In this document: in pieces, positions 2 through 20,895 of the stretch
Layout: the number at the start of each line of letters is the position of its first letter
Numbering within the stretch: position 1 is the stretch's first letter
NCBI RefSeq assembly: GCF_002305875.1
Contig: NZ_CP022098.1
Coordinates: 11,532,001-11,596,000 of the forward strand
Origin: Cystobacter fuscus
GTDB taxonomy: Bacteria; Myxococcota; Myxococcia; Myxococcales; Myxococcaceae
Length of the DNA stretch: 64,000 bases
Direction of reading: 5' to 3'
Notes under the pieces: generated by a model
Seen by the model: the letters and a program-made list of their open reading frames with translations, nothing else
Told to the model about the DNA's origin: nothing
Databases searched by the model: none
Translations under genes and position numbers: made by a program

Positions 2-211
2 GAGTCGATGATCTCCCGGCTCAAGGACGAGGTGGCCAACATCGAGTTCACCCCCTGGTACATCAAGGCGTCGCGCCGGGGACACGACACGGTGGGCAGC
101 CTGGTGGACTTCATCGACGAGCGTCAGCCGCAGGCCCAGGCCGAGACCACGGCGGGCGGCGAGGCCACGCTCGACAACGGGCTCGAGCCACTGGACTCGG
201 AGGCGGCATGA
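2..211 (+). CDS. Acyl carrier protein, C-terminal part (cut by window edge)
   Basis: The window opens inside this gene; 69 codons remain. They read like the second half of an acyl carrier protein: a helix-like stretch after an ESM triplet, then a closing TVGSLVDFI segment typical of ACP helix IV, then a short Ala/Gln/Glu-rich tail. The phosphopantetheine serine is either the Ser of ESM at the very edge or lies outside; I cannot tell which. The stop codon overlaps the ATG of the type III polyketide synthase by four bases (ATGA), which implies translational coupling. The mirror cassette at 4244-7433 also carries an ACP, which supports the call. Inferred role: to hold the fatty-acyl starter loaded by the FAAL at 1320-3173. 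Confidence 0.5.
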   Translation, partial: ESMISRLKDEVANIEFTPWYIKASRRGHDTVGSLVDFIDERQPQAQAETTAGGEATLDNGLEPLDSEAA

Positions 212-1269
212 CGCCGGCAGCACCCGAGCGTCGCCCCACCCTGCTGTCCATCGCATCAGCAGTGCCCCCGCTGTCGCTCACCCAGGAAGAAATCTACGAG
301 GGGCTGTTCAAGGACTGGTTCAAGCAGATCCCCAACGCCCAGCGCATCATCCAGAACACCGGGGTGCGCCGCCGCTTCTTCGCGTGGGATCCCCGTGTGG
401 AGCTCAAGAAGGGCCGGATGGGCGTGGGGGACCGGGTGCGCGTGTACGAGCGCGTCGGCCTCCAGGTCACCGGGGAATCGGTACAGAAGGCGCTGGGCGA
501 GTTGGATCGCTCGCGCGTGGGCGCCTTCACCATGACGACCAACTCGGGCTACTCGGGGCCGGGGTTGGACCTGTACATCGCCAAGAAGCTCGGGCTGCCC
601 TCCAGCATCCGCCGCACCTTCGTGGGGCACATGGGCTGCTTCGCGGCCTTCCCCGTGCTGCGCACCGCCATGGACAGCGTCGCCGCGCGTCCGGACCAGT
701 ACGTCATCGCCAACGCCTCCGAGTACAGCTCGCTGCACTACCACGACACGCCGGACCCCGAGCAGGTGGTGATCCACGGCCTGTTCGGCGACGCGGCGTG
801 CACGGTGGTGATGGGCAGCGCCCCGGACGGCGAGGGCGTGCAGTTCCTGCGCTCGCACACCGAGCAGCTCTACGAGACGCACGAGCTGATGGGCTGGCAC
901 ATGCACAACGACGGGTTCCGCATGAACCTGTCGCCCTACGTGCCCTTCGTGCTCGCCGAGCACGTGGACGACTTCCTGGAGAAGCTGCTCGGCCCCGAGG
1001 GGCTCAAGGCCGGTGACATCAAGCACTGGCTCATCCACCCGGGCGGGCCGAAGATCCTCGAGGGGCTGGGCAAGCAGCTCAAGCTGGACAAGTCGCGCAT
1101 GCGCGCCAGCTGGCACGTGCTCAGCGAGTACGGCAACTGCGGCGCCACCACCGTGCTGCTGGTGCTCGAGGAGGTGCTGCGCTCGGACAACCCCCAGCGC
1201 GGCGAGTACGGCGTGATGATGGGATTCGGACCCGGGCTGACCGTCGAGGGCATCCTGGTCCGCTTCTGA
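208..1269 (+). CDS. Type III polyketide synthase (chalcone/stilbene synthase-like)
   Basis: 353 residues with the thiolase fold of type III PKSs, which extend an acyl starter with malonyl units in one active site and then cyclise it. The catalytic triad is visible: Cys144 (in GHMGCFAAF), His277 (in LIHPGGPK) and Asn310 (in YGNCGATT). The C-terminal GFGPGLTVEG motif is also family-typical. Plant and many bacterial members take CoA starters. Here the upstream ACP overlaps by 4 bases and a FAAL follows after 50 bases, so an ACP-bound fatty acyl starter is likely, giving an alkyl-pyrone, -resorcinol or -resorcylic acid (inferred). KAS III was considered, but the His/Asn contexts and length fit type III PKS better. 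Confidence 0.88.
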   Translation: MTPAAPERRPTLLSIASAVPPLSLTQEEIYEGLFKDWFKQIPNAQRIIQNTGVRRRFFAWDPRVELKKGRMGVGDRVRVYERVGLQVTGESVQKALGELDRSRVGAFTMTTNSGYSGPGLDLYIAKKLGLPSSIRRTFVGHMGCFAAFPVLRTAMDSVAARPDQYVIANASEYSSLHYHDTPDPEQVVIHGLFGDAACTVVMGSAPDGEGVQFLRSHTEQLYETHELMGWHMHNDGFRMNLSPYVPFVLAEHVDDFLEKLLGPEGLKAGDIKHWLIHPGGPKILEGLGKQLKLDKSRMRASWHVLSEYGNCGATTVLLVLEEVLRSDNPQRGEYGVMMGFGPGLTVEGILVRF

Positions 1270-1319
1270 GCCCGGTTCCCCCGGGCCGTTCCTCCACCGC
1301 ATCACCGAGGTCACATCCA

Positions 1320-3173
1320 ATGAGTCAAGAGCGCCAGGAGCCGCTGCGGCGCCAGACGGGTCCCATCGCACTCGGCCCCGGAGCGGGGCGCCACCCGAGC
1401 CGGCAGCTCGCCCCGCGCGCGCCCACCCGCGCCTGGCCCGCCCCCGTGCACACACTGGCCGAGGCCGTGGTGCACTGGGGACGCACCCGCCCCTCCCAGC
1501 CCCTGCTCTACTTCGTGGACCTGGAGGAGCGCCTCACCGTGCTCACCGCGGGGGACGTGCTGCACAACACCCTGCGCCTGGGCGCCAACCTGCACGCGCG
1601 CGGCGTAAGGCACGGGGACCGGGTGGTGCTCTCGTTCGACACCAGCCCCGAGTTCCTCGAGTGCTTCCTGGCCTGCGGGCTGGTGGGCGCCACGCCCTGC
1701 CTCATCGAGCTGCCCTCCTCCAAGGTGTCCGTGCAGGCCTGGGGCGAGCGGCTGCGCGCCAAGCTGCGGCTGCTCGGCGCCCGCGCCATGCTCATTGATC
1801 CGGACTTCGTGGACCTGGCGCACGAGGCGCTCGCCGAGTACACCCCCGAGCCCGGCCAGACGGCCCCCTTCGTGGCCGTGCCGGCGGACCTGGTGGCCGA
1901 CGCCGAGCCCCTCACCCCGCCCACCCTGGACGCGGACGAGACGGCCTTCATCCAGTTCACCTCGGGCACCACGGACGCCCCCAAGGGCGTGCAGATCTCC
2001 CACCGGGCGCTGCTGGCCAACTGCGCGGCCATCGGCGAGGGCGGCGGGTGGGACTCGGATGACCTGATGGTCTGCTGGCTGCCGCTCTTCCACGACATGG
2101 GCCTGGTGGCCAGCGTGCTCGCCTCGCTCGTGCACGGCCTGCCCACGGCGCTCCTGCCGCCCTTCGGCTTCCTGCTCAAGCCCTCGCGCTGGCTGTGGGC
2201 GATCCACGCCTTTCGCGCCACCTCGTGCTTCGCCCCCAACTTCGCCTACCAGCTGTGCGTCAAGCGCATCAAGGACGCGGAGCTGGACGGGTTGGACCTG
2301 AGCGCCTGGAAGCGCGCCTACAACGCCGCGGAGTTCATCCACGCCGACACGGTGCAGCAGTTCACCGAGCGCTTCGGCCCCCATGGCTTCGAGCCGGAGG
2401 CGTGGCGGCCCTCCTACGGCATGGCGGAGATGGTGGTGGGGGTGACGTGCCGCATGCGGGGCGAGCCCCTGCGCGTCGAGACGCTCTCGCGCACGGCCCT
2501 GGCCACGCGGCGCGAGGCCGTGCCCGTGGCCCCGGGCACCCGCGCCGATGCGCTCGTGGTGCACGGCGTGGGCCGGACCCTCAAGGGCATCGAGTTGAAG
2601 ATCGTGGACGAGGAGGGCCAGCCGGTGCCCGAGCGCCACGAGGGAGAAATCCTGCTGCGCGGCACGTCGCTCTTCAGCGGCTACTACCAGAACCCCGAGG
2701 CCACCGGCGCGGTGCTGCGCGACGGCTGGCTGTACACCGGAGACCTGGGCTACCTCGTCGGCAGCGAGCTCTTCATCTGCGGGCGCAGCAAGGATCTCAT
2801 CATCAAGGCGGGGGAGAACCACCACCCGTACACCATGGAGAACGCCGCCGGGCGCGTGGCGGGCGTGCGCGTGGGCTGCGTGGCGGCGGTGGGCGTCAAC
2901 AACGCCCAGACGGGCACCGAGGACATCGTCATCGTGTGCGAGACCACCGAGAGCAAGCCCGACGCGCTGCGCCAACTGTGCAAGCACGTGGAGGAGACCG
3001 TCTTCCAGGGCGCCGGCGTCCGTCCCAACCGCGTCGTCCCCGTGCCGCCCCAGTCCCTGCCCAAGACGACCAGCGGCAAGCTCAAGCGCGCCTACATCCG
3101 CCAGAACATCGAGGAGTTCGAGGCCCTCTCCCTCCTGGTGAAGCCGCCGCCCCCCGTCGCCGTGGTGCACTGA
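1320..3173 (+). CDS. Fatty acyl-AMP ligase (FAAL)
   Basis: 617-residue adenylate-forming enzyme that would activate a free fatty acid as acyl-AMP and pass it to a carrier protein. Visible motifs: P-loop FTSGTTDAPKG; CWLPLFHDMGL and FAPNFAYQLCVKR, both characteristic of FAALs; SYGMAEM in the core; GWLYTGDLGY with GRSKDLII at the domain hinge; and PKTTSGKLKR carrying the C-terminal catalytic Lys. About 45 Pro/Arg-rich residues precede the first conserved block, longer than in the second FAAL at 4244-5998. It is third in the ACP-PKS-FAAL cassette. FAAL rather than acyl-CoA ligase is chosen from the HDMGL/NFAY signatures and the adjacent ACP. Confidence 0.87.
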   Translation: MSQERQEPLRRQTGPIALGPGAGRHPSRQLAPRAPTRAWPAPVHTLAEAVVHWGRTRPSQPLLYFVDLEERLTVLTAGDVLHNTLRLGANLHARGVRHGDRVVLSFDTSPEFLECFLACGLVGATPCLIELPSSKVSVQAWGERLRAKLRLLGARAMLIDPDFVDLAHEALAEYTPEPGQTAPFVAVPADLVADAEPLTPPTLDADETAFIQFTSGTTDAPKGVQISHRALLANCAAIGEGGGWDSDDLMVCWLPLFHDMGLVASVLASLVHGLPTALLPPFGFLLKPSRWLWAIHAFRATSCFAPNFAYQLCVKRIKDAELDGLDLSAWKRAYNAAEFIHADTVQQFTERFGPHGFEPEAWRPSYGMAEMVVGVTCRMRGEPLRVETLSRTALATRREAVPVAPGTRADALVVHGVGRTLKGIELKIVDEEGQPVPERHEGEILLRGTSLFSGYYQNPEATGAVLRDGWLYTGDLGYLVGSELFICGRSKDLIIKAGENHHPYTMENAAGRVAGVRVGCVAAVGVNNAQTGTEDIVIVCETTESKPDALRQLCKHVEETVFQGAGVRPNRVVPVPPQSLPKTTSGKLKRAYIRQNIEEFEALSLLVKPPPPVAVVH

Positions 3174-3263
3174 AAACCTGGTTCACCTGTTTTGGTTGAT
3201 TCCCATATTTTTATAAAAAAGCGCTCGCCTCCTTGCTTGCCCTGATTGCCTGAAGTAGAAGAT

Positions 3264-3290
3264 TTCCAACTTTCCCACGAGGAGTTGGAA
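3264..3290 (+). promoter_or_regulatory. Predicted hairpin over the ribosome-binding site of the metalloprotease
   Basis: TTCCAACT (3264-3271) pairs perfectly with AGTTGGAA (3283-3290); two G-U pairs could extend the stem inward. The GAGGAG ribosome-binding site (3279-3284) lies in the loop and the right arm, and the A of the ATG is the last stem base. The 3174-3263 leader is unusually AT-rich for this genome. This would hide the start until melted or bound. Seen in sequence; function inferred. Confidence 0.4.
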
Positions 3291-4171
3291 TGTCCCGCAG
3301 CGTCGTGTCGATGAGTGGCAAGTTCGCGGTGGTCCTGGGTGCGGTCCTGGCGCTCGGTGGTTGCACCGAGGTCGATCAGGTGCCCGCGGAGGAGGCAGCT
3401 CCCCAGGAGCAGGGGTTCGCGCGCGGCTGTGTGACGAAGGACCTGAGCGAGGCCGAGAGGAACGCGGTGGAGCAGGCCATCGCGGGGACGGTGAAGGGCC
3501 AGGCGCGCACCCCGGGCTCGGTGACCATCAAGGTCTACTGGCACACCATCACCAACACCTCGGGCGCGGGCGCCCTGAGCGCCACGGCGATCGCCAACCA
3601 GATCTCCGTGCTCAACGCCGCCTACTCGAAGACGCCCTTCAAGTTCTCGCTCGTGAGCACGGACACCACCGCCAACAACTCCTGGTACACCACCACGGGC
3701 GGCACCTACGAGTCGGCGATGAAGAACGCGCTGCGCAAGGGTGGCGCGGGCGACCTGAACGTCTACTCCAACAACATGGGCGGCGGCCTGCTGGGCTGGG
3801 CGACCTTCCCCTCCAGCTACTCCTCGCAGCCGAAGATGGACGGCGTGGTCATCCTCTACAGCTCGCTGCCCGGCGGCAGCGCGGCCCCCTTCAACCAGGG
3901 TGACACGGCGACCCACGAGGTCGGCCACTGGCTGGGCCTGTACCACACCTTCCAGGGCGGCTGCACCACCACGAACGACAGCGTGAGCGACACCCCGGCC
4001 GAGTCCACCCCGGCGTCGGGCTGCCCCACGGGCCGCGACACCTGCTCCTCCGCCGGCCTGGACCCCATCACCAACTTCATGGACTACAGCGACGACGCCT
4101 GCATGAACACCTTCTCCACGGGCCAGATCGAGCGCATGGACACCCTGACCAAGCAGTACCGCGGGATCTGA
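3290..4171 (+). CDS. Secreted pappalysin-type (M43) zinc metalloprotease, lipoprotein
   Basis: 293 residues. The N-terminus has a hydrophobic segment ending in LGGC, a lipobox, so the mature protein is probably lipid-anchored or exported. The zinc site HEVGHWLGLYH (His209, Glu210, His213, His219) and the Met-turn NFMDYS (Met264) define an M43/cytophagalysin-like metzincin. Several Cys pairs near the active site would form disulfides. The start at 3290 has GAGGAG six bases upstream and is chosen over the internal ATG eight codons later. It lies between two lipid/polyketide cassettes with its own leader and terminator, so it is probably an independent transcript. Likely role: extracellular proteolysis in predation or development (inferred). 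Confidence 0.9.
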   Translation: MSRSVVSMSGKFAVVLGAVLALGGCTEVDQVPAEEAAPQEQGFARGCVTKDLSEAERNAVEQAIAGTVKGQARTPGSVTIKVYWHTITNTSGAGALSATAIANQISVLNAAYSKTPFKFSLVSTDTTANNSWYTTTGGTYESAMKNALRKGGAGDLNVYSNNMGGGLLGWATFPSSYSSQPKMDGVVILYSSLPGGSAAPFNQGDTATHEVGHWLGLYHTFQGGCTTTNDSVSDTPAESTPASGCPTGRDTCSSAGLDPITNFMDYSDDACMNTFSTGQIERMDTLTKQYRGI

Positions 4172-4197
4172 TCCCCGTCTGAAGTCCCGCCGTCCCC

Positions 4198-4240
4198 GAC
4201 GCCGGAGCACGCCTCACCCGCGTGCCCGGCGTCTTCGTTT
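4198..4240 (+). terminator. Rho-independent terminator after the metalloprotease
   Basis: Stem 4198-4212 pairs with 4220-4233 (GACGCCGG plus GCACGC, one bulged A), with a 7-base loop, followed by TTCGTTTTT. The T-run is on + only, so it serves the metalloprotease, insulating the convergent FAAL that ends at 4244. Confidence 0.75.
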
Positions 4241-4243
4241 TTC

Positions 4244-5998
4244 CTACTCCTCGCGCTCCACCCGGGCGAAGGCCAGCGCGCTCCGGGCCATCTCCACCAT
4301 GAGGCCCACCGTCCTCACCTTCTTGGGCGCGGTGAGCTCGTTGGCGAGGAAGCGCCGCAAGGCCTCGCCACGGCGCAGCTTGCCGCTGGAGGTGCGCGGC
4401 AGCGTGCCCGGCTCCAACACGCGCACCGTGTGGGGCCTCACGCCCGTGCCCGCCACCACCGCCTCGCGCACCCGCTCCTCCAGGCCCTCCACCCGCGCTC
4501 CCGGCGCATGCTCGGCGAGCACCAGCAGGGCCTCGTCCTGGCCATCCTCGGGGGTGAAGCCCAGCGCCACCGCGCACCCCGTGCGCAGGCCGTCCACGCC
4601 CTCCAGCGCCTCCTCGAACTCCTGGGGCGCGTGGTTGGCGCCGCGGATGATGACCAGGTCCTTCGCGCGGCCGGTGAGGAACAGCTCGCCGTCCGCCTCG
4701 AAGCCCAGGTCCCCCGTGTCCAGCCAGCCCGCCTCGTCCAGCGCGCGCACCGTGGCCTCGGGCAGGCCGAAGTAGCCCTCCATCACCGAGGGGCCCCGGG
4801 CGAACACCCGCCCCACGCGCCGCTCCGGCAGCACGTGGCCCAGCGAGTCGCGCACCTGCACCTCGCAGCCCGGCACCGGACGCCCCACGGACACCACCGG
4901 GCGCTCCCCCTCCACCATGCGCCGCTCCGTGGCCAGCACCCGCGCGTCCACTCCCAGCGCGTACGGCCCCCGGCCCGCCACCGGGAAGGTGACGGCGAGC
5001 GACGCCTCGCTCAGCCCGTACACGGGCCGCATCGCCCCCGGCTGGAAGCCCCAGCGCGAGAAGCGCTCGCCAAAGCGCCGCAGCGTCTCCAGCGACACGG
5101 GCTCCGCGCCATTGAGCGCGTGCCTCCAGGCCGACAGGTCCACGCCCTCCAGCTCCGCGTCCTTCACCCGCTTGAGGCACAGCCCATAGGCGAAGTTGGG
5201 CGCGGGCGACACGAAGGCACGGTGGCGCGACAGGGCGCGCAGCCACAGCGCCGGCCGCGCGAGGAACACCTCGGGCGGAATGAGCACCATGCGCCCCGGG
5301 TAGTACAGCGCCGAGAGCAGACAGCCGATGAGCCCCATGTCGTGGTAGAGCGGCAGCCACGACACGCCCACGGCGTCGCCCTCGAGTGGCGGCGGAATCT
5401 CCGCCTCCAGCGCCGCCAGCTGCGCCATCAGGCTGTCGTGGCGCAACGCCACCGGCTTGGGGTCCACCGTGGAGCCCGACGAGAACTGGATGAGGCCCAG
5501 GGACTGGGGCGCGACGGACAGGGCCAGCTCCCCGCCCTCGCGCGACACGTCCTCCACCGTCAGACACCCGAGCCGGGGACGCGCCGCCGCCACGGGCGTG
5601 CCCAACAACAGCCGCACCTTCGAGTCCGTGAGCACCACGGCCGCGCCCGACACCTCCAACATGCGCGCCGTCGAGCGGTGGTACTCCTCCAGCCGGCCCA
5701 GGCGCACCGGGGGATAGAGCGGCACCGGCACCGCGCCCGCCAGCAACGTGCCGAAGAACGCATCCATGAAGCCCGGCGAGGTGGGCAGCAGCAGCGCCAC
5801 CCTGTCTCCGGGCCGCACCCCCAGGTGGTGCAGCCCCGAGGCCGTGCGGCACGCCCGCTCGTACACCTGGGCCCAGGGCAGGTGCGTCTCGCGCTCGGCC
5901 GCGTCCACGAAGACGAGTCCGAGCCGCCCACGGGCCGCGCCCTCCAGGGCCTCGTTGAGCGTGGGGTACTTCACGCGCGGCAGCGGGGGCCCCTTCAT
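4244..5998 (-). CDS. Fatty acyl-AMP ligase (FAAL), second copy
   Basis: 584 residues, starting MKGPPLPRVKYPTL. Motifs: P-loop IQFSSGSTVDPK, SWLPLYHDMGLIG, SPAPNFAYGLCLKR, YGLSEASLAVT, GWLDTGDLGF, GRAKDLVIIRGANHAPQ and LPRTSSGKLRRG with the catalytic Lys. The RGANHxPQ block is strongly typical of FAALs that load carrier proteins. The ATG overlaps the stop of the ACP gene by four bases (5995-5998), so ligase and carrier are translationally coupled. It shares the fold and neighbours of the FAAL at 1320-3173 but is clearly diverged, so the two cassettes are not a recent duplication. Inferred role: loading a fatty acid on the ACP for the type III PKS. Confidence 0.9.
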   Translation of the reverse strand: MKGPPLPRVKYPTLNEALEGAARGRLGLVFVDAAERETHLPWAQVYERACRTASGLHHLGVRPGDRVALLLPTSPGFMDAFFGTLLAGAVPVPLYPPVRLGRLEEYHRSTARMLEVSGAAVVLTDSKVRLLLGTPVAAARPRLGCLTVEDVSREGGELALSVAPQSLGLIQFSSGSTVDPKPVALRHDSLMAQLAALEAEIPPPLEGDAVGVSWLPLYHDMGLIGCLLSALYYPGRMVLIPPEVFLARPALWLRALSRHRAFVSPAPNFAYGLCLKRVKDAELEGVDLSAWRHALNGAEPVSLETLRRFGERFSRWGFQPGAMRPVYGLSEASLAVTFPVAGRGPYALGVDARVLATERRMVEGERPVVSVGRPVPGCEVQVRDSLGHVLPERRVGRVFARGPSVMEGYFGLPEATVRALDEAGWLDTGDLGFEADGELFLTGRAKDLVIIRGANHAPQEFEEALEGVDGLRTGCAVALGFTPEDGQDEALLVLAEHAPGARVEGLEERVREAVVAGTGVRPHTVRVLEPGTLPRTSSGKLRRGEALRRFLANELTAPKKVRTVGLMVEMARSALAFARVEREE

Positions 5999-6276
5999 GG
6001 CGCACCTTCCACGAAGGCGTGCCGGGCGCCGCCCGACAGCCGCGAGGCCACCAGGTGCATGAGATCTCCCACCGTCACCACGCCCATCGAGTCCTCCATG
6101 GACAGGCGGATGCGGAAGCGGTTCTCCAGTTCCACCGCCAGCACCGTGAGGCCCAGGCTGTCGAGCTGGAGATCGCGCATCAGGTGATGCACGGGCTCCA
6201 CCGGGCCACTCCACTCCAGCTCCTGGGAAACGATGCGGCGGATTTCATCGAGGACGACCAGCTCATGCTCAACCAC
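5995..6276 (-). CDS. Acyl carrier protein
   Basis: 93 residues with the phosphopantetheine site LQLDSLGLT (Ser40) followed by LAVELENRFRIRL and a TVGDLMHLV close, the standard four-helix ACP plan. The start is a GTG at 6276 because GGAGGT lies six bases before it and no ATG fits the reading frame at the N-terminus. It sits between the type III PKS (71 bases upstream) and the FAAL (4-base overlap), so it is almost certainly the shuttle carrying the acyl starter from FAAL to PKS. Length is slightly above that of E. coli AcpP, which suggests a dedicated rather than housekeeping carrier. Confidence 0.88.
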   Translation of the reverse strand: MVEHELVVLDEIRRIVSQELEWSGPVEPVHHLMRDLQLDSLGLTVLAVELENRFRIRLSMEDSMGVVTVGDLMHLVASRLSGGARHAFVEGAP

Positions 6277-6347
6277 GGAGTACCTCCGGCAAGGAAGCGA
6301 GGCCCCCCCTGGCAGGAGCCTCGAAAGGGGCGAGCCGTCCCGCCGGC

Positions 6348-7433
6348 TCACCAGCGCAGCAGCACGAGTTCGGCGCAGAAGCCCGGACCCATGGCCATCA
6401 TCACGCCCCAATCTCCGGGCCGGGCCACGCCCGACTCCAGCGTGTCCCCCAGCACGAAGAGCACCGAGGCCGAGGAGAGGTTGCCCACCTCGTGCAGGGA
6501 CCTCCACGAGCGCTCCAGCGAGCCGACCACCAGCTCCAGCGAGTCCTCGAAGGCCTGCAACACCTTGGGACCTCCGGTGTGTGCCACCCAGTGCTTGATG
6601 TCCTTGCGCGTGAGCCCCTGCTCGGCGAGGAAGCCGTCCACGTCCTGGCGGATGTGCTCGCGCACCAACTGCGGCACCTTGGCCGACAGCACCACCTTGA
6701 AGCCCGAATCCACCACGTCCCAGCCCATGATGCGCTCGGTGTCCGGGAAGAGCACCGAGCGGGTGGACATGATGCGCGGCCCCGTGCCCGTAGGGGCCTT
6801 GTCCGCGCCCTGCAACACCACGCACGCCGCCCCGTCCCCGAAGAGCCCGGAGGCGATGATGTTGGGGATGGACAGGTCCTCGCGCTGGAGCGTCAGCGAG
6901 CACAGCTCCACGGTGATGAGCAGCGCCGTCTGGCCCTTCCACGCGCGCAGGTAGTCCGAGGCGCGCGACACCCCCGCCGCCCCCGCCACACACCCCAGCC
7001 CGAAGATGGGCGTGCGCTTCACGTCCGAGCGCATCCGCATGCGGTTCATCAACCGCGCGTCGACGCTCGGCGTGGAGATGCCCGTCACCGTGACGAAGAA
7101 GAGGTGGTCCACGTCCCGCGGCGTGAGCCCCGTGCGCTCCAACGCCTTGCCCACCACCTGCTCGCCCAGCTCGCTGGCCACCTTGATCCACGCGTCGTTG
7201 CGCTGCTGGAAGGTGGTGAGCGTGTTGTACTGCTCGATGGGAAGGGCGAGGAAGCGGCCGTCCACCTGCACCGAGCGATGCAGCTCCTCCAGGCGCTCGA
7301 TGTTGTAGTGCCTCGTGGCCCAGAGATCGCGCAGCGCCCCGATGATCTGCTCCTGCGGGGAGTAGTGCGGCGGAAGCAACCGCTCCACGGCACGGATGAC
7401 AGGAGCGCAGTCCTGGGTGAGTGCGGTGTTCAT
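6348..7433 (-). CDS. Type III polyketide synthase, second copy
   Basis: 361 residues from the ATG at 7433; another ATG at 7442 is in frame, but GAGGG abuts it directly while standing nine bases from the 7433 ATG, so I prefer 7433. The triad is Cys148 (FGLGCVAGAAG), His285 (VAHTGGPK) and Asn318 (HEVGNLSSAS). The GLGCVAG motif is closer to canonical chalcone/alkylpyrone synthases than the HMGCFAA of the first copy. First gene of the PKS-ACP-FAAL operon on -. Type III PKSs condense malonyl units on an acyl starter; the neighbouring ACP and FAAL suggest a free fatty acid enters through acyl-AMP and acyl-ACP (inferred). A palindrome at 7578-7593 lies in its upstream region. Confidence 0.9.
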   Translation of the reverse strand: MNTALTQDCAPVIRAVERLLPPHYSPQEQIIGALRDLWATRHYNIERLEELHRSVQVDGRFLALPIEQYNTLTTFQQRNDAWIKVASELGEQVVGKALERTGLTPRDVDHLFFVTVTGISTPSVDARLMNRMRMRSDVKRTPIFGLGCVAGAAGVSRASDYLRAWKGQTALLITVELCSLTLQREDLSIPNIIASGLFGDGAACVVLQGADKAPTGTGPRIMSTRSVLFPDTERIMGWDVVDSGFKVVLSAKVPQLVREHIRQDVDGFLAEQGLTRKDIKHWVAHTGGPKVLQAFEDSLELVVGSLERSWRSLHEVGNLSSASVLFVLGDTLESGVARPGDWGVMMAMGPGFCAELVLLRW

Positions 7434-7577
7434 CGACGCCATCCCTCGGAAAGAGTGGGGGATCGACGGTTAATCACCCCGCCCCGAGGGTGCGACCTGG
7501 ACGCGGAAGATTGAATGTCCCTGCACTTCCTCCCCTGCGGGACATGCTGGCTGGCTGACAACTGGCCCATCCAACAC

Positions 7578-15571: not shown

Positions 15572-17872
15572 TCCTCACGTCTCGTACTCCTCGTGGGCCT
15601 GGTGGCCTGCTTGAGCATTGGCTGTCGTGATCAGGGAGCGGTGAAGCTCACCATCTCCTTTCCGAATTTCAAACCCGGCTGCATCCGCGTGAGCGTGAAG
15701 GACGCTCAAGGCGCGGGCGAGGAGCGCTCGACGGAGCTCCAGGAGCAGCTCGTGGGGAAGAAACGCGGCGAGAAGGTGACGGTGGCGGCATTTCGCGAGG
15801 AGGGCTGGGGCCCGACGCTCACCGTCACCGCGACGGCGTTCGAGCAGAAGTGCGGGCAGGGCCCCGAGTTCGTCGCGTCGGACTCCGTCGACGTGGGCCG
15901 GGGCGTCTCCTCGGCGGCGCTGACGCTCGTGGCGGATGACGCGGACGATGATGGCTACGTCTCCAAGGCCAGTGGCGGCACGGACTGCAATGACGGAGAG
16001 GCCACGGTGCACCCCGGGCAGGCGGAGCTGTGCAACACCCGGGATGACAACTGCGACGGCAAACCAGACGAGGGCTTCGAGCAGGTCGGCCAGCAGTGCG
16101 GCACGGGGAGCAGCACGTGTCAGACCTGGGCCTGTGATGCCGTGGGAGCCATGAGTTGCCAGGAGGTCACGCCCAAGTGGTATCGCGACCAGGATGGGGA
16201 CGGCGAAGGCGACCCCCAGCAGGGCCTGAGCCAGTGCGCCAAACCGGCGGGCTACGTGAACAACGACCGCGACTGCGACGACACCCGGAAGGAGCGCTAC
16301 AGCACCGCGACCGAGCTGTGCAACGGGGTGAACGACAACTGTGATGACGTGGTCGACGAGGGATTCAACACCGGCGCCACCTGCACGGGTGAGCTCGGAT
16401 GTGGGGGCAAGATCGAATGCGCCACGACCACCCAGTCCGTGTGCAAGGTCGTGACGAGCACCTGGTACCTGGACGGGGACCAGGACGGTCATGGCGCGAA
16501 GGCCACGGAAATAAAGGCCTGCGGCACCACTGCACCCGGTAGCAACTACGTCGCCAGCTCGGACGATTGCGATGACACCAAGAACAACGTGTACACCGGA
16601 GCCCCGGAATTCTGCGACACGCTGGACAACAATTGCAACAACCAGACGGACGAGGGCTTCGACGTAGGCGCGACGTGCGACGCGGGCAATGAGTGCACAG
16701 GCAAGAAGGAGTGCTCGCCGGATGGAAAGAGCAGCCTGTGCAAATCCACGACGTCTCCCACGAAGTACTACGTGGACACCGACCTCGATAATTACGGTGA
16801 TGACAACTCGGTCATCCAGACGTGCGGTACGCCCGCCGCCGGATACATTACCCAAGGGGGAGACTGCGACGACGGCAACCGGTTCACCCACCCGAATGCG
16901 ACCGAGGTCTGCGATCTCGCGGACAACGATTGCGACAACACCACGGATGAAGAGAACGTTTGTCCCACGACTCCAGCTTGGACGAACTACCCCTCGTCAG
17001 GTTCGGAGACCTGGTATTCCGTGGCGCTCTATGGAAATGGAGGCGTGTGGGTCGCTGGCGGTGACAAATTCCACCAGCGTAAATCCAAAGAGACAAGCTT
17101 CCAGGACCTGAGCACCTGCACGGCAGGGGCGAGCGTGTACAGCGTTGCCGCGACTCCGGGCTCAGGGGACGCCCTGCTCGGAGGGAACGATGGGTTCATG
17201 GCGCGGTATGACCCGAACAGCGAGCTGTGTGTGGACCCTGGGAAGAAGTCCGTGGATACGCACATCAAGGGTGCCATCGCCTTCCCCCTTGGAAACGACA
17301 TCGAAGCCCACTTCGTGGGATTCAACACAAGCACTGGCCCAGACAAAGGACGTGCGTTCCGGGTGCTCACGCCCCAAGGCACCAACTACGACACCCAGTC
17401 CGTGTCCGAGGAACTGACGGACGTGCATGGCCTCTCACAAGACACGCTGTTCGCCGTCGGTGGGACAAACGCGTCCAGTATCTACCGGTTCGACAAAACC
17501 TCGGGGAACTGGAGTCCAGAGACCATTTCCAGCAGAGGAGGCACCCTTCAAGGTATCTGGGTCGTGAACCCCAAGCTGGCCTATGCCGTGGGCAACGGTG
17601 GAATCATGTACGGTTGGGATGGTTCTGCCTGGAGCAAGTTCACGCCTACGCCACCGGGTGAACACCTCAGCTCGGTGGTGGCCTTTGGGAGCCGTTCCAT
17701 CTACATCTCCACGCTGACTGGGAGGGTCTACCGTTACAACGGCAGTGCGTGGACGAAGGTGTTCGATCTCGGCTCGACAACACCTGGTCAGTTCCGAGAC
17801 ATCGCGGCAAACAATCCAGGAGACATCTGGGTCGTGGGCAGCAACGGCAATCGCTACCACTGGCCCCAGTGA
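15569..17872 (+). CDS. MopE-like Cys/Asp-rich repeat lipoprotein with C-terminal beta-propeller
   Basis: 767 residues. Signal with lipobox SIGC (Cys19). Residues about 123-470 hold four copies of a module with a DxDxDG-type calcium loop, a DCDD/DCND stretch and an ExCxxxDxNCD signature. This is the MopE-type putative metal-binding repeat common in myxobacterial surface proteins. Residues about 480-767 repeat a pattern with GGVWVAGG, TLFAVGG, LAYAVGNGG and GDIWVVGSNG, a beta-propeller of about six or seven blades. Likely cell-surface or matrix protein binding metal and a partner; partner unknown. Base composition falls visibly in the propeller half compared with flanking genes, hinting at domain exchange. 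Confidence 0.85.
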   Translation: MSSRLVLLVGLVACLSIGCRDQGAVKLTISFPNFKPGCIRVSVKDAQGAGEERSTELQEQLVGKKRGEKVTVAAFREEGWGPTLTVTATAFEQKCGQGPEFVASDSVDVGRGVSSAALTLVADDADDDGYVSKASGGTDCNDGEATVHPGQAELCNTRDDNCDGKPDEGFEQVGQQCGTGSSTCQTWACDAVGAMSCQEVTPKWYRDQDGDGEGDPQQGLSQCAKPAGYVNNDRDCDDTRKERYSTATELCNGVNDNCDDVVDEGFNTGATCTGELGCGGKIECATTTQSVCKVVTSTWYLDGDQDGHGAKATEIKACGTTAPGSNYVASSDDCDDTKNNVYTGAPEFCDTLDNNCNNQTDEGFDVGATCDAGNECTGKKECSPDGKSSLCKSTTSPTKYYVDTDLDNYGDDNSVIQTCGTPAAGYITQGGDCDDGNRFTHPNATEVCDLADNDCDNTTDEENVCPTTPAWTNYPSSGSETWYSVALYGNGGVWVAGGDKFHQRKSKETSFQDLSTCTAGASVYSVAATPGSGDALLGGNDGFMARYDPNSELCVDPGKKSVDTHIKGAIAFPLGNDIEAHFVGFNTSTGPDKGRAFRVLTPQGTNYDTQSVSEELTDVHGLSQDTLFAVGGTNASSIYRFDKTSGNWSPETISSRGGTLQGIWVVNPKLAYAVGNGGIMYGWDGSAWSKFTPTPPGEHLSSVVAFGSRSIYISTLTGRVYRYNGSAWTKVFDLGSTTPGQFRDIAANNPGDIWVVGSNGNRYHWPQ

Positions 17873-17877
17873 AGCAC

Positions 17878-17909
17878 GGGGACCCGCGGGCAGAAGCCAC
17901 GCGGGTCCC
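17878..17909. terminator. Hairpin between convergent lipoprotein genes
   Basis: GGGACCCGCG (17878-17887) pairs perfectly with CGCGGGTCCC (17900-17909). It lies in the 48 bases between two converging genes and could end both transcripts, but has no T-run on either strand. Confidence 0.45.
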
Positions 17910-17920
17910 GAGTCGGGCAA

Positions 17921-18664
17921 CTACTTCTTGGAGGTACCCGCGTCCGTGGCCGGAGTCCCGGCATCGGTCGCGGGAGGAGTCCCGGCGTCACCCGCCGGAG
18001 TCCCCGCGTCGCCAGCGGGAGTCCCACCGTCACCCGCCGCCGAGCCCTTGGGCGCCGGCGAGATGGAGGGCGGGGGGTTGATCAGCTCGAGCGAGGAGAA
18101 GAACTGATCGGCCTGGGGAGCGCCGATGCTCGGGTTGTAGAGGACGAGCAGGGTGTAGAGGCGCGGCCCGACGAGGAAGTTCTGCGCACGCACCTCTCCG
18201 GAGTCCGAGGAGATGGTGAGGGACTTGCCGGGGTAGCCCTGGAGGGTGATGTCCTCCTCGGACTTGACGGTGCCATTGAGCTTGCCGACGAGGCCGGCCT
18301 TGCCCTCGTTGAAGAAGGCGGCGGCCGGGTGGGCCGAGACGACCTTCTCGGGGTAATCGAGCGTGCTGATGGAGTAGAGCACGCCGGTGATGTCATTGAT
18401 GGCCCAGGAGGCGGTCTGCACCTCGCCACCGGGGATGGAGACCTTGCCGCGCTGGGCCTCGGGCTGGCCGGGGAGCTGCACGGAGAAGCCCTCGGGGGCG
18501 GTGATCTTCTGGAACTGGATCTGGGGCCGCTCGGTGGGCGTGTTCTCGTTGGGAACCTCCTCGACCGTGGACCCACCCGACGTGGAGGAGCCCGTGGTGG
18601 CGCAAGCAAGGCCAATCAGCGACAAGGTGACGACGGCGGCGAACAAGCGGGACAAAGATGACAT
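17921..18664 (-). CDS. Hypothetical lipoprotein with Gly-Asp-Ala-Gly-Thr-Pro repeat tail
   Basis: 247 residues, not recognised as a named family. It has a signal with lipobox GLAC, then a Thr/Ser/Asn linker. A compact central domain (about 50-190) opens ITAPEGFSVQLPGQPE and ends in a predicted helix FFSSLELI, a layout seen in small exported proteins that follow the pattern 'FsvelPgkP...'. The last 60 residues repeat GDAGTPA and TDAGTPA five times, a flexible exported tail. It is transcribed towards the MopE-like gene and follows, on the same strand, the propeller lipoprotein at 18787-20895 after 122 bases, so the two may be expressed together. Confidence 0.7.
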   Translation of the reverse strand: MSSLSRLFAAVVTLSLIGLACATTGSSTSGGSTVEEVPNENTPTERPQIQFQKITAPEGFSVQLPGQPEAQRGKVSIPGGEVQTASWAINDITGVLYSISTLDYPEKVVSAHPAAAFFNEGKAGLVGKLNGTVKSEEDITLQGYPGKSLTISSDSGEVRAQNFLVGPRLYTLLVLYNPSIGAPQADQFFSSLELINPPPSISPAPKGSAAGDGGTPAGDAGTPAGDAGTPPATDAGTPATDAGTSKK

Positions 18665-18786
18665 AGGTGCGAGTCCAGGATGTTTGAGGTGGAATGGAAG
18701 CGGGCGAACCCTAGACGAGTCCGCCCCATGTCTCTACTTCGAGTGTCGGGAGTGACGACACGAGGACAAGCCGCCTCGTGCTTCTC

Positions 18787-20895
18787 CTAGGGGCAAGAGG
18801 TGAGAGGGGTGTCCGGATTGCCGGTATTGCGTGAATCGTGCTGGTACCTGGGCCAGGGGGCCGTGGAATCCAATCCCGGGCTGTCCACGACGATGGCGAA
18901 GACCCTGCCGTCCTGACTCGCCGCGTACAGCACACCGGGCATGCCGGACAGCACGCCACCATCCGTCGCCCGGCTACAGTCGAGGTTCATCGATGCTTCA
19001 ATGGGGGATTCAGCGTCGAATTGCCACTCGATGTGGTCCAACGGCCGACGCGCCTGGATGAGTCCACTCGTCGAGCTGGCGGTGTAAACGTAGCCACCCG
19101 CTCCCCAGACGGGAGCCCCCTTGATGACCTCGGAGGGAGTCTGGATGGTCTGCGTCCCGCCATCCGCCGCATCCAATGCGAGCAGGTTGTTGTTCTGAAG
19201 GCCCGCGACTACCCGGGTCTCGGGCGAGCCACCAATACTGGCATTCCAGGTCGGAGACCCTGTGGGGGTGTTCGTCGGGTCCTGCCCACCATCCAGCGGC
19301 GCGGTGAAAAGCCTGCTGTTGGTTCCATCGTTGCTACCGCCGAATATCCGCCCATTCGCCACGGCCATTGATGTGGGGCTTACCAATCCGAGCGGGCGAT
19401 CCCATTGCGCTGAGCTGTTCCAAAGCCCACTGGATCCAAGAGCGTAGGATTTCAATCTGCCCGTCGAAGTCCCCAGAACAACAGAGGTTCCTGAAGCAAG
19501 CATCGACCCCGGAGCAACAACATCGCCAACGTTGGCAATTGCCGGACATTGCAACTGAGGATCATTCTCCGCATCTGGCCGCACAGCGAAGAGCGTCCCG
19601 CCAACACGTCCTGCGTAGACACCATAGACTGTCTCAGCTGCGCTCCCTATAGGGACCTGACCGATTGCCAACGCCGATTGGACGAGTACACCCGTCAAAG
19701 AGGAATCAGTGCATGGAGTGATAAAAGCACTGCTCCCTGCGTAAAAACCAACTCGATTTGCGCTGGCCTTTCTATGAGCGGCGTAGACGCGCTCCGTGCC
19801 ATCAGGCAACGCATTGCCCACCGCGGGACTGGCCACGACAGCTCCAGTGCTCGCTTCCCACAACAAACGACCATCCTCGGAGAGCGCGAGGAATCGACCG
19901 TCGTTGTTGTTGATATTCGTTGTCCCGACATAGAGGACGCCTTTGTTCCCCACGGCGGGCGCGGCGGTAATCAAGGCGGAGTTGATACCGTGTCGCCACT
20001 TCCAGCGCGTCACGGGGATGCTCCCCTTACCGGAAGTCTGGTTCCCCACCCGATCCTTCGCGCTCACCTCGACGGCGAACTCGCCGCGGAACGCAGGCAG
20101 GCCCGGCTTCCACAAGGGCACATCGACCGTCGCGCAATACGCTTTCCCGTCGCACGGAGTCACCAGAGCCAGGGTCAGCCCCTCCAGCGCAACCCCTCCG
20201 TCGAATCCGCGCACGAGCACGCTCACGCTTTGCGGATCCAGGTCCGCCGAAATGGAGTCGACCCGCACCGTCGCCGTCTGATCCCTTCGCCATGCACTCG
20301 GTGCCGCGGGGTCCTTGTAGATGAAGCCACCGTCCGGCTCCCGGCTCGGCGAGGCCGTCGGCACCACCGACAGCAAGGGGCCCGTCGTGTCCACCGTCAG
20401 CCCCACCGTGGTGCTCGGCCCGCCCTGTTCGGGATACGCCGCCGTCAGCCGATAAGCACCCTCCCCCGAGGGATTCCACTGCGTCGTGTAGACCCCATCA
20501 CCCTCCGTCGTCGTCGGCAGCGAGGCGACCGTCCCTCCGTCTCCTCGCGAGACACCGATGTTCAGCGTCTCGGGGAAGTTCGCCGCGAACCCGGGCGTCA
20601 CCCGCAGCTCCGCCCGCACGGACAGCGTTCCTCCGTCGATCACCGTCGCGTCGCTCGGACTCACCACCAGCCCCGTGAACCGCGGCTGGCATTTCAACGT
20701 CAACGCGGAACAGGCCTCGTAGGTGGCGCAGGGCCGATCACACGCCTGGCTGTCGATCTCTCCGTCGTAGACACAGACGTTCTGCAGGCACTGTGCACCA
20801 GAGCGACAGTCGGCCGCGGTCTCGCACCGATTGATCGGCTGCGTGCACGCGCAGAGCGCGCCCAACAGCAACAGTCCGAGGACCTTGCGCCACAT
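18787..20895 (-). CDS. PQQ-like beta-propeller lipoprotein with N-terminal Cys-rich and Ig-like parts
   Basis: 702 residues. Signal with lipobox ALCAC. Residues about 20-70 contain eight Cys in an EGF-like spacing (CETAADCRSGAQCLQNVC). Residues about 75-270 look like two Ig/bacterial-repeat domains. From about 285 on, blades of the form AVGNKGVLYVGTT, GRLLWEAS, VYAAH and GGYVYTASS indicate an eight-bladed PQQ/BamB-like propeller. The closing PWPRYQHDSRNTGN is a common propeller end. No enzyme function is implied; surface binding or adhesion is likely. GAGGTG stands nine bases before the ATG. The centre of the propeller (about 19300-19950) is clearly less GC-rich than neighbouring genes. Confidence 0.8.
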   Translation of the reverse strand: MWRKVLGLLLLGALCACTQPINRCETAADCRSGAQCLQNVCVYDGEIDSQACDRPCATYEACSALTLKCQPRFTGLVVSPSDATVIDGGTLSVRAELRVTPGFAANFPETLNIGVSRGDGGTVASLPTTTEGDGVYTTQWNPSGEGAYRLTAAYPEQGGPSTTVGLTVDTTGPLLSVVPTASPSREPDGGFIYKDPAAPSAWRRDQTATVRVDSISADLDPQSVSVLVRGFDGGVALEGLTLALVTPCDGKAYCATVDVPLWKPGLPAFRGEFAVEVSAKDRVGNQTSGKGSIPVTRWKWRHGINSALITAAPAVGNKGVLYVGTTNINNNDGRFLALSEDGRLLWEASTGAVVASPAVGNALPDGTERVYAAHRKASANRVGFYAGSSAFITPCTDSSLTGVLVQSALAIGQVPIGSAAETVYGVYAGRVGGTLFAVRPDAENDPQLQCPAIANVGDVVAPGSMLASGTSVVLGTSTGRLKSYALGSSGLWNSSAQWDRPLGLVSPTSMAVANGRIFGGSNDGTNSRLFTAPLDGGQDPTNTPTGSPTWNASIGGSPETRVVAGLQNNNLLALDAADGGTQTIQTPSEVIKGAPVWGAGGYVYTASSTSGLIQARRPLDHIEWQFDAESPIEASMNLDCSRATDGGVLSGMPGVLYAASQDGRVFAIVVDSPGLDSTAPWPRYQHDSRNTGNPDTPLTSCP

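Follow-up and report, generated by a model that had tools for sequence, protein, structure and literature searches.

Two convergent cassettes, each encoding a predicted type III polyketide synthase (PKS), an acyl carrier protein (ACP) and a fatty acyl-AMP ligase (FAAL), lie at the start of a 64,000-nucleotide stretch of the Cystobacter fuscus genome (contig NZ_CP022098.1, positions 11,532,001 to 11,596,000; the whole stretch is hereafter the window), and phylogenetic tests indicate that they represent two lineages of separate origin. We consider it probable that both synthases are fed by acyl-ACP, that one cassette (set B; PKS2-ACP2-FAAL2, minus strand) is an inherited operon trimmed to its core and that the other (set A; ACP1-PKS1-FAAL1, plus strand) was acquired. 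Both sets are intact, and coordinates and family assignments agree with a sequence-only reading of this DNA, which had described two convergent sets of these three families in different gene order, each with one four-base overlap. The overlaps are both ATGA, at 208-211 (ACP1/PKS1) and 5995-5998 (ACP2/FAAL2). That reading placed the sets side by side; they do converge at one locus, but an M43 gene and a terminator stand between them. The features, in window coordinates, are as follows.

ACP1, -127 to 211 (L005:9873-10211), plus strand, of which the 3' part (1-211) is inside the window: putative ACP, with a weak NCBIfam ACP match and an ACP fold predicted for an Archangium homologue.
PKS1, 208-1269, plus strand: predicted type III PKS of the GHMGC[FYN]A clade.
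FAAL1, 1320-3173, plus strand: predicted fatty acyl-AMP ligase; pocket residues T83/P107/P226 kept, P at 252.
M43 (pappalysin-type) metalloprotease lipoprotein gene, 3290-4171, plus strand: assigned by family match, downstream of set A.
Terminator hairpin, 4198-4233, plus strand: GC-rich, then UUCGUUUUU; -28.9 kcal/mol, z -6.65.
FAAL2, 4244-5998, minus strand: predicted fatty acyl-AMP ligase of the myxobacterial alkylpyrone operon type.
ACP2, 5995-6276, minus strand: predicted ACP with a GTG start; PP-binding match 2.5e-8.
Deletion scar, 6277-6350, minus strand: site, between PKS2 and ACP2, of an ICMT-type methyltransferase gene in other genera.
PKS2, 6348-7442, minus strand: predicted type III PKS of the Pks11 type (E 1e-92 with Pks11).

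The host genome is a single 12.35 Mb contig with only three clear type III PKSs. Both PKS1 and PKS2 were present in all ten genomes examined from genera g1 and g8 (g1 being the window's genus, with four genomes, G000-G003, of which G000 is the window's own), and in all ten they are linked and face each other at a distance of about 5-28 kb. Given so few type III PKSs and so constant a linkage, the pairing of the sets appears to be more than chance.

PKS1 and PKS2 share 30% identity and FAAL1 and FAAL2 38%. Phylogenies of the PKS and FAAL pairs, a check that the sequence-only reading had proposed, placed PKS1 in a clade (support 99/96) with enzymes from Mycobacterium, Microvirga, Nannocystis, a metagenome-assembled genome (MAG) and actinomycetes, and PKS2 in another (100/100) with Pks11. 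FAAL1 grouped with FAALs from a Myxococcota MAG, Microvirga, a MAG, Nannocystis and actinomycetes (100/99). Approximately unbiased (AU) tests rejected both a single clade of the myxobacterial PKS1 and PKS2 sequences (p 4.9e-5, log-likelihood difference 162) and a single clade of FAAL1 and FAAL2 (p 9e-42, log-likelihood difference 260). Because both joint clades are rejected, set A is very probably not a duplicate of set B, and the two sets would have arisen separately; their description as two diverged sets stands in that they belong to one known class, but they do not appear to be copies of one set. The active-site motif HMGCFAA of PKS1, previously singled out as a hint of a different starter or ring closure, does mark a different PKS lineage. 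It is no peculiarity of this one enzyme, however, since GHMGC[FYN]A is the signature of nearly the whole PKS1 clade across phyla (GHMGCCA in Nannocystis).

Set A, which belongs to the rarer of the two lineages, travels as a unit. A FAAL-like gene was found in the flank of 28 of 37 PKS1-family loci from named genomes. Archangium, a Myxococcota MAG, two bacterial MAGs and Microvirga all share the order ACP1-PKS1-FAAL1, as do two genomes (G118 and G120) in which the set is unlinked to set B. Two Myxococcus-like loci (L139 and L140) carry flavin adenine dinucleotide (FAD)-oxidase and short-chain dehydrogenase/reductase (SDR) genes beside set B, separated from it by only one or two other genes and an oxidoreductase, and have no set A; in the window's genome FAD-oxidase and SDR genes stand upstream of set A. 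Because L139 and L140 keep these neighbours next to set B, it looks as though set A and a receptor-like gene were inserted between the FAD-oxidase/SDR genes and set B, an entry that would date to an ancestor of the Archangium/Cystobacter-like genera. The receptor-like gene encodes a methyl-accepting-type protein and adjoins set A on its upstream side; in a comparison of 39 relatives, a close orthologue (64-98%) was found only in genomes with set A, the next best match being at most 48%.

The neighbourhood of set A has further members. From about 4.3 to 0.3 kb before the first base of the window (L005:5660-9729; also in L068, L069, L070 and L134) there follow an O-methyltransferase gene, a UbiA-family gene (observed in G001, with a HAD-like portion), a FAD-binding oxidase gene, the SDR gene and then the receptor-like gene. 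We take the combination of UbiA, FAD oxidase and SDR to be reminiscent of a polyprenyl-phosphoryl-arabinose (DprE1/DprE2-like) set. On the other side, M43 lipoprotease genes occur in one to four copies just 3' of set A across Archangium-like genomes (L071, L088, L089, L136 and L138), for a reason that is not obvious.

Set B reads as the core of a conserved myxobacterial alkylpyrone operon, inherited vertically, as judged from operon content, genus distribution and literature. Close relatives of PKS2 were present in 118 of 195 genomes of the phylum, and in other genera the operon order is PKS2-ICMT-ACP2-FAAL2-FAD oxidoreductase. This content fits the alkylpyrone cluster that PMC12766979 describes as conserved in Myxococcus, Corallococcus, Archangium, Cystobacter and others, and we therefore assign set B to the alkylpyrone type. 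The core parts PKS2, ACP2 and FAAL2 are present in the window, with an order that is conserved in relatives; none of the four g1 genomes has the ICMT methyltransferase or the FAD oxidoreductase in set B. A start of ICMT (ATGGTGAGC) is still legible between PKS2 and ACP2 in G001 and G002, where the sequence at the junction is GCGATGGTGAGC, which matches the start of ICMT in G010, and the ACP2 start CCGTGGTT comes about 50-75 bases farther on. ICMT has thus been lost from set B by a clean deletion that left this scar, and the oxidoreductase has been deleted from the operon as well.

Adjacent ICMT and oxidoreductase genes were found at 10.25 Mb in G000, 1.28 Mb from the locus, encoding proteins 65% and 56% identical, respectively, to the operon versions. 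Such an adjacent pair is also present in G001 and G002, and none was found in the draft assembly of G003. Possibly the distal pair acts in trans on the set B lipid. A pentapeptide-repeat self-resistance gene was reportedly described by Hug and colleagues; scanning the window and relatives with a simple motif detected none near set B, although divergent repeats could escape such a scan.

Both synthases are predicted to be type III PKSs of the chalcone/stilbene synthase superfamily. The N- and C-terminal Chal_sti_synt domains scored 62.8 and 101 bits in PKS1 and 68.9 and 77.1 bits in PKS2, above the Pfam cut-off of 27, and a Cys-His-Asn triad is present in both (C144/H277/N310 in PKS1, with aligned equivalents in PKS2). 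Pks11 is the nearest solved structure to PKS2, with CylI as the next-best PDB match. The best solved relatives of PKS1 are 7cb3 (E 3e-44) and Pks18 (E 2e-40), and its nearest named matches, among which the window's own species may be missing, come from Archangium (A. violaceum and A. lansinium, about 80% identity). FAAL1 and FAAL2 scored 389 and 454 bits with the fatty acyl-AMP ligase family PRK09192, for which the NCBIfam subfamily cut-off of 600 bits is reached by neither, against 191 and 172 bits with the acyl-CoA ligase family PRK06187. EcFAAL has an alternative, proline-rich phosphopantetheine pocket (T83, P107, P226 and T252; PMC8460268), of which the first three residues are identical in both proteins and position 252 is a proline in both. 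On these family scores and kept pocket residues, both are predicted to be FAALs rather than acyl-CoA ligases.

ACP2 contains a PP-binding domain (34.5 bits; cut-off 20.8) with its serine in LDSL. ACP1 gave no Pfam match at 0.01, failing the PP-binding threshold, and its NCBIfam ACP match (1.6e-5) fell under the cut-off. Its attachment serine (DLGMDS) lies at window positions -10 to -8, so that the catalytic motifs described earlier as complete are indeed complete in the genome, but this one could not have been read from the window. The structural model of an Archangium homologue of ACP1 (L088) is a four-helix bundle (helices 3-17, 40-53, 60-66 and 74-87) with the serine of a DS(L/F) motif at the start of helix II, and DS is invariant in the alignment. 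All 50 of the 50 best PDB matches listed for this model were ACPs or ACP-containing complexes, the best with E 2e-3, a probability of 1.00 and a TM-score by target of about 0.8. ACP1 would thus represent a divergent subfamily, and the more cautious statement is that it functions as an ACP does. It differs markedly from ACP2: one Trp is invariant, and extra residues are inserted ahead of helix IV.

FAALs convert fatty acids to acyl-AMP and pass them to holo-ACP, and type III PKSs extend their substrates with malonyl-CoA and close the ring. At this locus each FAAL would activate a free fatty acid as acyl-AMP and transfer the acyl group to its holo-ACP; the PKS would then take the chain onto its cysteine and add malonyl-CoA units, and ring closure by the same enzyme would give an alkylpyrone, alkylresorcylic acid or alkylresorcinol-type lipid. 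A Myxococcus xanthus FAAL-ACP pair loads fatty acid in vitro (PMC8460268), acyl-ACP is accepted as a starter by some type III PKSs (reviewed in PMC6274091 and PMC8086630) and a ring-closure switch has been described at ArsB W281/ArsC G284 (PMC6274091). The likeliest product of set B is an alkylpyrone, and set A most likely makes a second, related lipid. Of the outcomes suggested earlier for the locus, two related lipids would be the likeliest, and a mixed product is speculative.

Parts of the two lineages occur together in nine Mycobacterium loci, in which a PKS1-clade enzyme lies directly downstream of a FAAL2-type FAAL, preceded in eight of them by an ACP2-type gene; in one (L093) an MmpL-family transporter comes next. 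The FAALs of these hybrid loci cluster with FAAL2 (100/99), grouping with FAAL1 was rejected (p 2.4e-4), and seven of their ACPs scored 46-52 bits with an ACP2 profile versus 16-26 with an ACP1 profile. The hybrid FAAL was the sole one of its kind in all four Mycobacterium genomes checked, chosen from the genomes behind six loci, where other FAALs were at most 39% identical to it, compared with 52-55% for myxobacterial FAAL2. From these sequences, the set A and set B lineages seem to have exchanged parts at least once, in a natural swap. The hybrids make carrier cross-use more plausible, without demonstrating cross-feeding in the window's organism. A search of the open-licence literature for a FAAL-type III PKS-MmpL arrangement in Mycobacterium gave, among the titles listed, other systems only.

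Elsewhere in the PKS1 clade, loci from actinomycetes and Nannocystis (L106, L108, L112, L118, L121 and L102) combine the synthase with acyl-CoA dehydrogenase-like, UbiE-like methyltransferase, ACP and FAAL genes, and look like uncharacterised biosynthetic clusters. The dehydrogenase-like and UbiE-like domains were checked in L106 and L102, and L106 also encodes a class III aminotransferase; for PKS1-clade clusters with aminotransferase and acyl-CoA dehydrogenase, the open-licence literature searched held no matching paper and no product. The third type III PKS of the host genome (G000:C1:9347298-9348338; L006:9275-10342) also belongs to the PKS1 family (45% to PKS1; motif GNMACNG). It adjoins genes for an SDR and a small 67-aa protein, has no FAAL or ACP beside it and is conserved in G001 and G003. 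In a relative from Archangium sp. SZUA-606 (L109:4530-5591 and L074:6499-7560) the motif is GNMASGA, the catalytic Cys apparently having become Ser, and the His and Asn motifs are kept.

With three like protein types standing side by side, one might suppose that a single set was duplicated here in the Archangium lineage, the copies later diverging and changing their gene order. PMC12766979 notes that the alkylpyrone cluster of Archangium seems to have undergone gene duplication, although this may refer to the M43 genes with their varying copy number. We regard this origin as extremely improbable, in view of the low identity within each protein pair, the nearest relatives of FAAL1 in a Myxococcota MAG, Microvirga, a MAG and Nannocystis, and the rejected joint clades; under the model used, the AU tests rule out duplication of one set, which only a large model artefact could rescue. 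Less easily set aside, though still unlikely, is cross-feeding, with either FAAL/ACP pair loading either PKS, so that the locus would yield a family of mixed lipids or a single product whose chains are of two types. The Mycobacterium hybrids, their single FAAL of that kind and the unbroken linkage of both sets in the ten g1/g8 genomes would all fit such exchange, but the parts could have been re-matched by co-evolution after the swap, the Trp and insertion that set ACP1 apart from ACP2 suggest separate recognition, and set A stands apart from set B in G118 and G120. That the locus forms a combinatorial unit, in which either carrier feeds either synthase while the set-A-specific receptor-like protein and trans tailoring enzymes shape mixed lipids, strikes us as unlikely.

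It is also conceivable, if decidedly unlikely, that in this genus set B is a relic in decay, deprived of its methyltransferase and oxidoreductase, and that set A took over. Such decay would agree with the loss of both genes from set B throughout g1 and with the lack of a distal pair in the draft assembly of G003. Against it, the core genes of set B show no damage and are conserved within g1 (PKS2 78-95%, ACP2 72-97% and FAAL2 87-96% identity), triad and pocket residues are kept, and three of the four genomes retain an adjacent ICMT-oxidoreductase pair elsewhere. We thus favour two acyl-ACP-fed cassettes of separate origin, with set B trimmed and set A acquired, and several points weigh against this. 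The ICMT tree does not place the distal ICMT as the relocated original; the trees were built without the reference sequences FtpA, BGC0001831, ArsB/C, SrsA and Gcs; and the L139 and L140 arrangement could also have come about by loss of set A in Myxococcus, with no insertion in the other genera. Moreover, we infer all of the chemistry, and the alkylpyrone assignment depends on the three lines of evidence named above for set B.

The convergent genes would be separated by the hairpin at 4198-4233, which is predicted to be a strong intrinsic terminator. A sigma-70 promoter scan and a simple terminator scan gave no match, and folding afterwards revealed the hairpin. Farther into the window, G+C falls to 62-63% at positions 16001-20000, against about 69% over the remaining window.

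The class itself is not wholly new, as the sequence-only reading had stated, since acyl-ACP-fed type III PKSs are known, as in Myxococcus. The FAAL-ACP-type III PKS (Ftp) system of Myxococcus xanthus, which makes alkylresorcylic acid (Hayashi et al., 2011, as cited in PMC8460268) and is the precedent that the sequence-only reading had named, is alike in passing fatty acid from a FAAL through an ACP to a type III PKS. The Myxococcus xanthus alkylpyrone cluster (MIBiG BGC0001831; Hug et al., 2019, as cited in PMC12766979) resembles set B in its type III PKS core, conserved through Myxococcales. The Myxococcus-like operon consists of PKS-ICMT-ACP-FAAL-FAD oxidoreductase, whereas set B of the window has neither ICMT nor FAD oxidoreductase and has set A adjoining. 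As to the alkylpyrone type III PKSs of Mycobacterium tuberculosis, PKS2 is Pks11-like, and PKS1 matches Pks18 yet falls in a separate, distant clade. In cylindrocyclophane biosynthesis (CylA/CylB/CylI) a ligase and a free ACP likewise begin the lipid and a type III PKS ends it, but there the chain passes through type I PKSs on its way from ACP to type III PKS, and this locus has no type I PKS. The PKS1-clade clusters of Nannocystis, Streptomyces, Microbispora and relatives share their PKS/FAAL/ACP lineage with set A but carry acyl-CoA dehydrogenase, methyltransferase and aminotransferase genes, tailoring functions that set A lacks.

As far as the open-licence literature shows, the separate origin of the sets, the split set B operon with a readable scar, the uncharacterised set A lineage crossing three phyla and the Mycobacterium hybrids are new; already known are the class and, from PMC12766979, the remark on an apparent duplication of the Archangium alkylpyrone cluster. 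The trimming of set B, the position of set A between kept neighbours and the separate origins had not been foreseen in the sequence-only reading. What looked like a duplication, in a gene cluster that ranks among the most conserved of myxobacteria, is thereby reinterpreted, half of the locus being, on this evidence, a separately acquired and chemically uncharacterised lineage. The convergent pair and the Mycobacterium hybrids offer ready partners for asking which carrier a type III PKS accepts, and from the splitting of the alkylpyrone operon one would predict that enzymes encoded at another locus complete its lipid.

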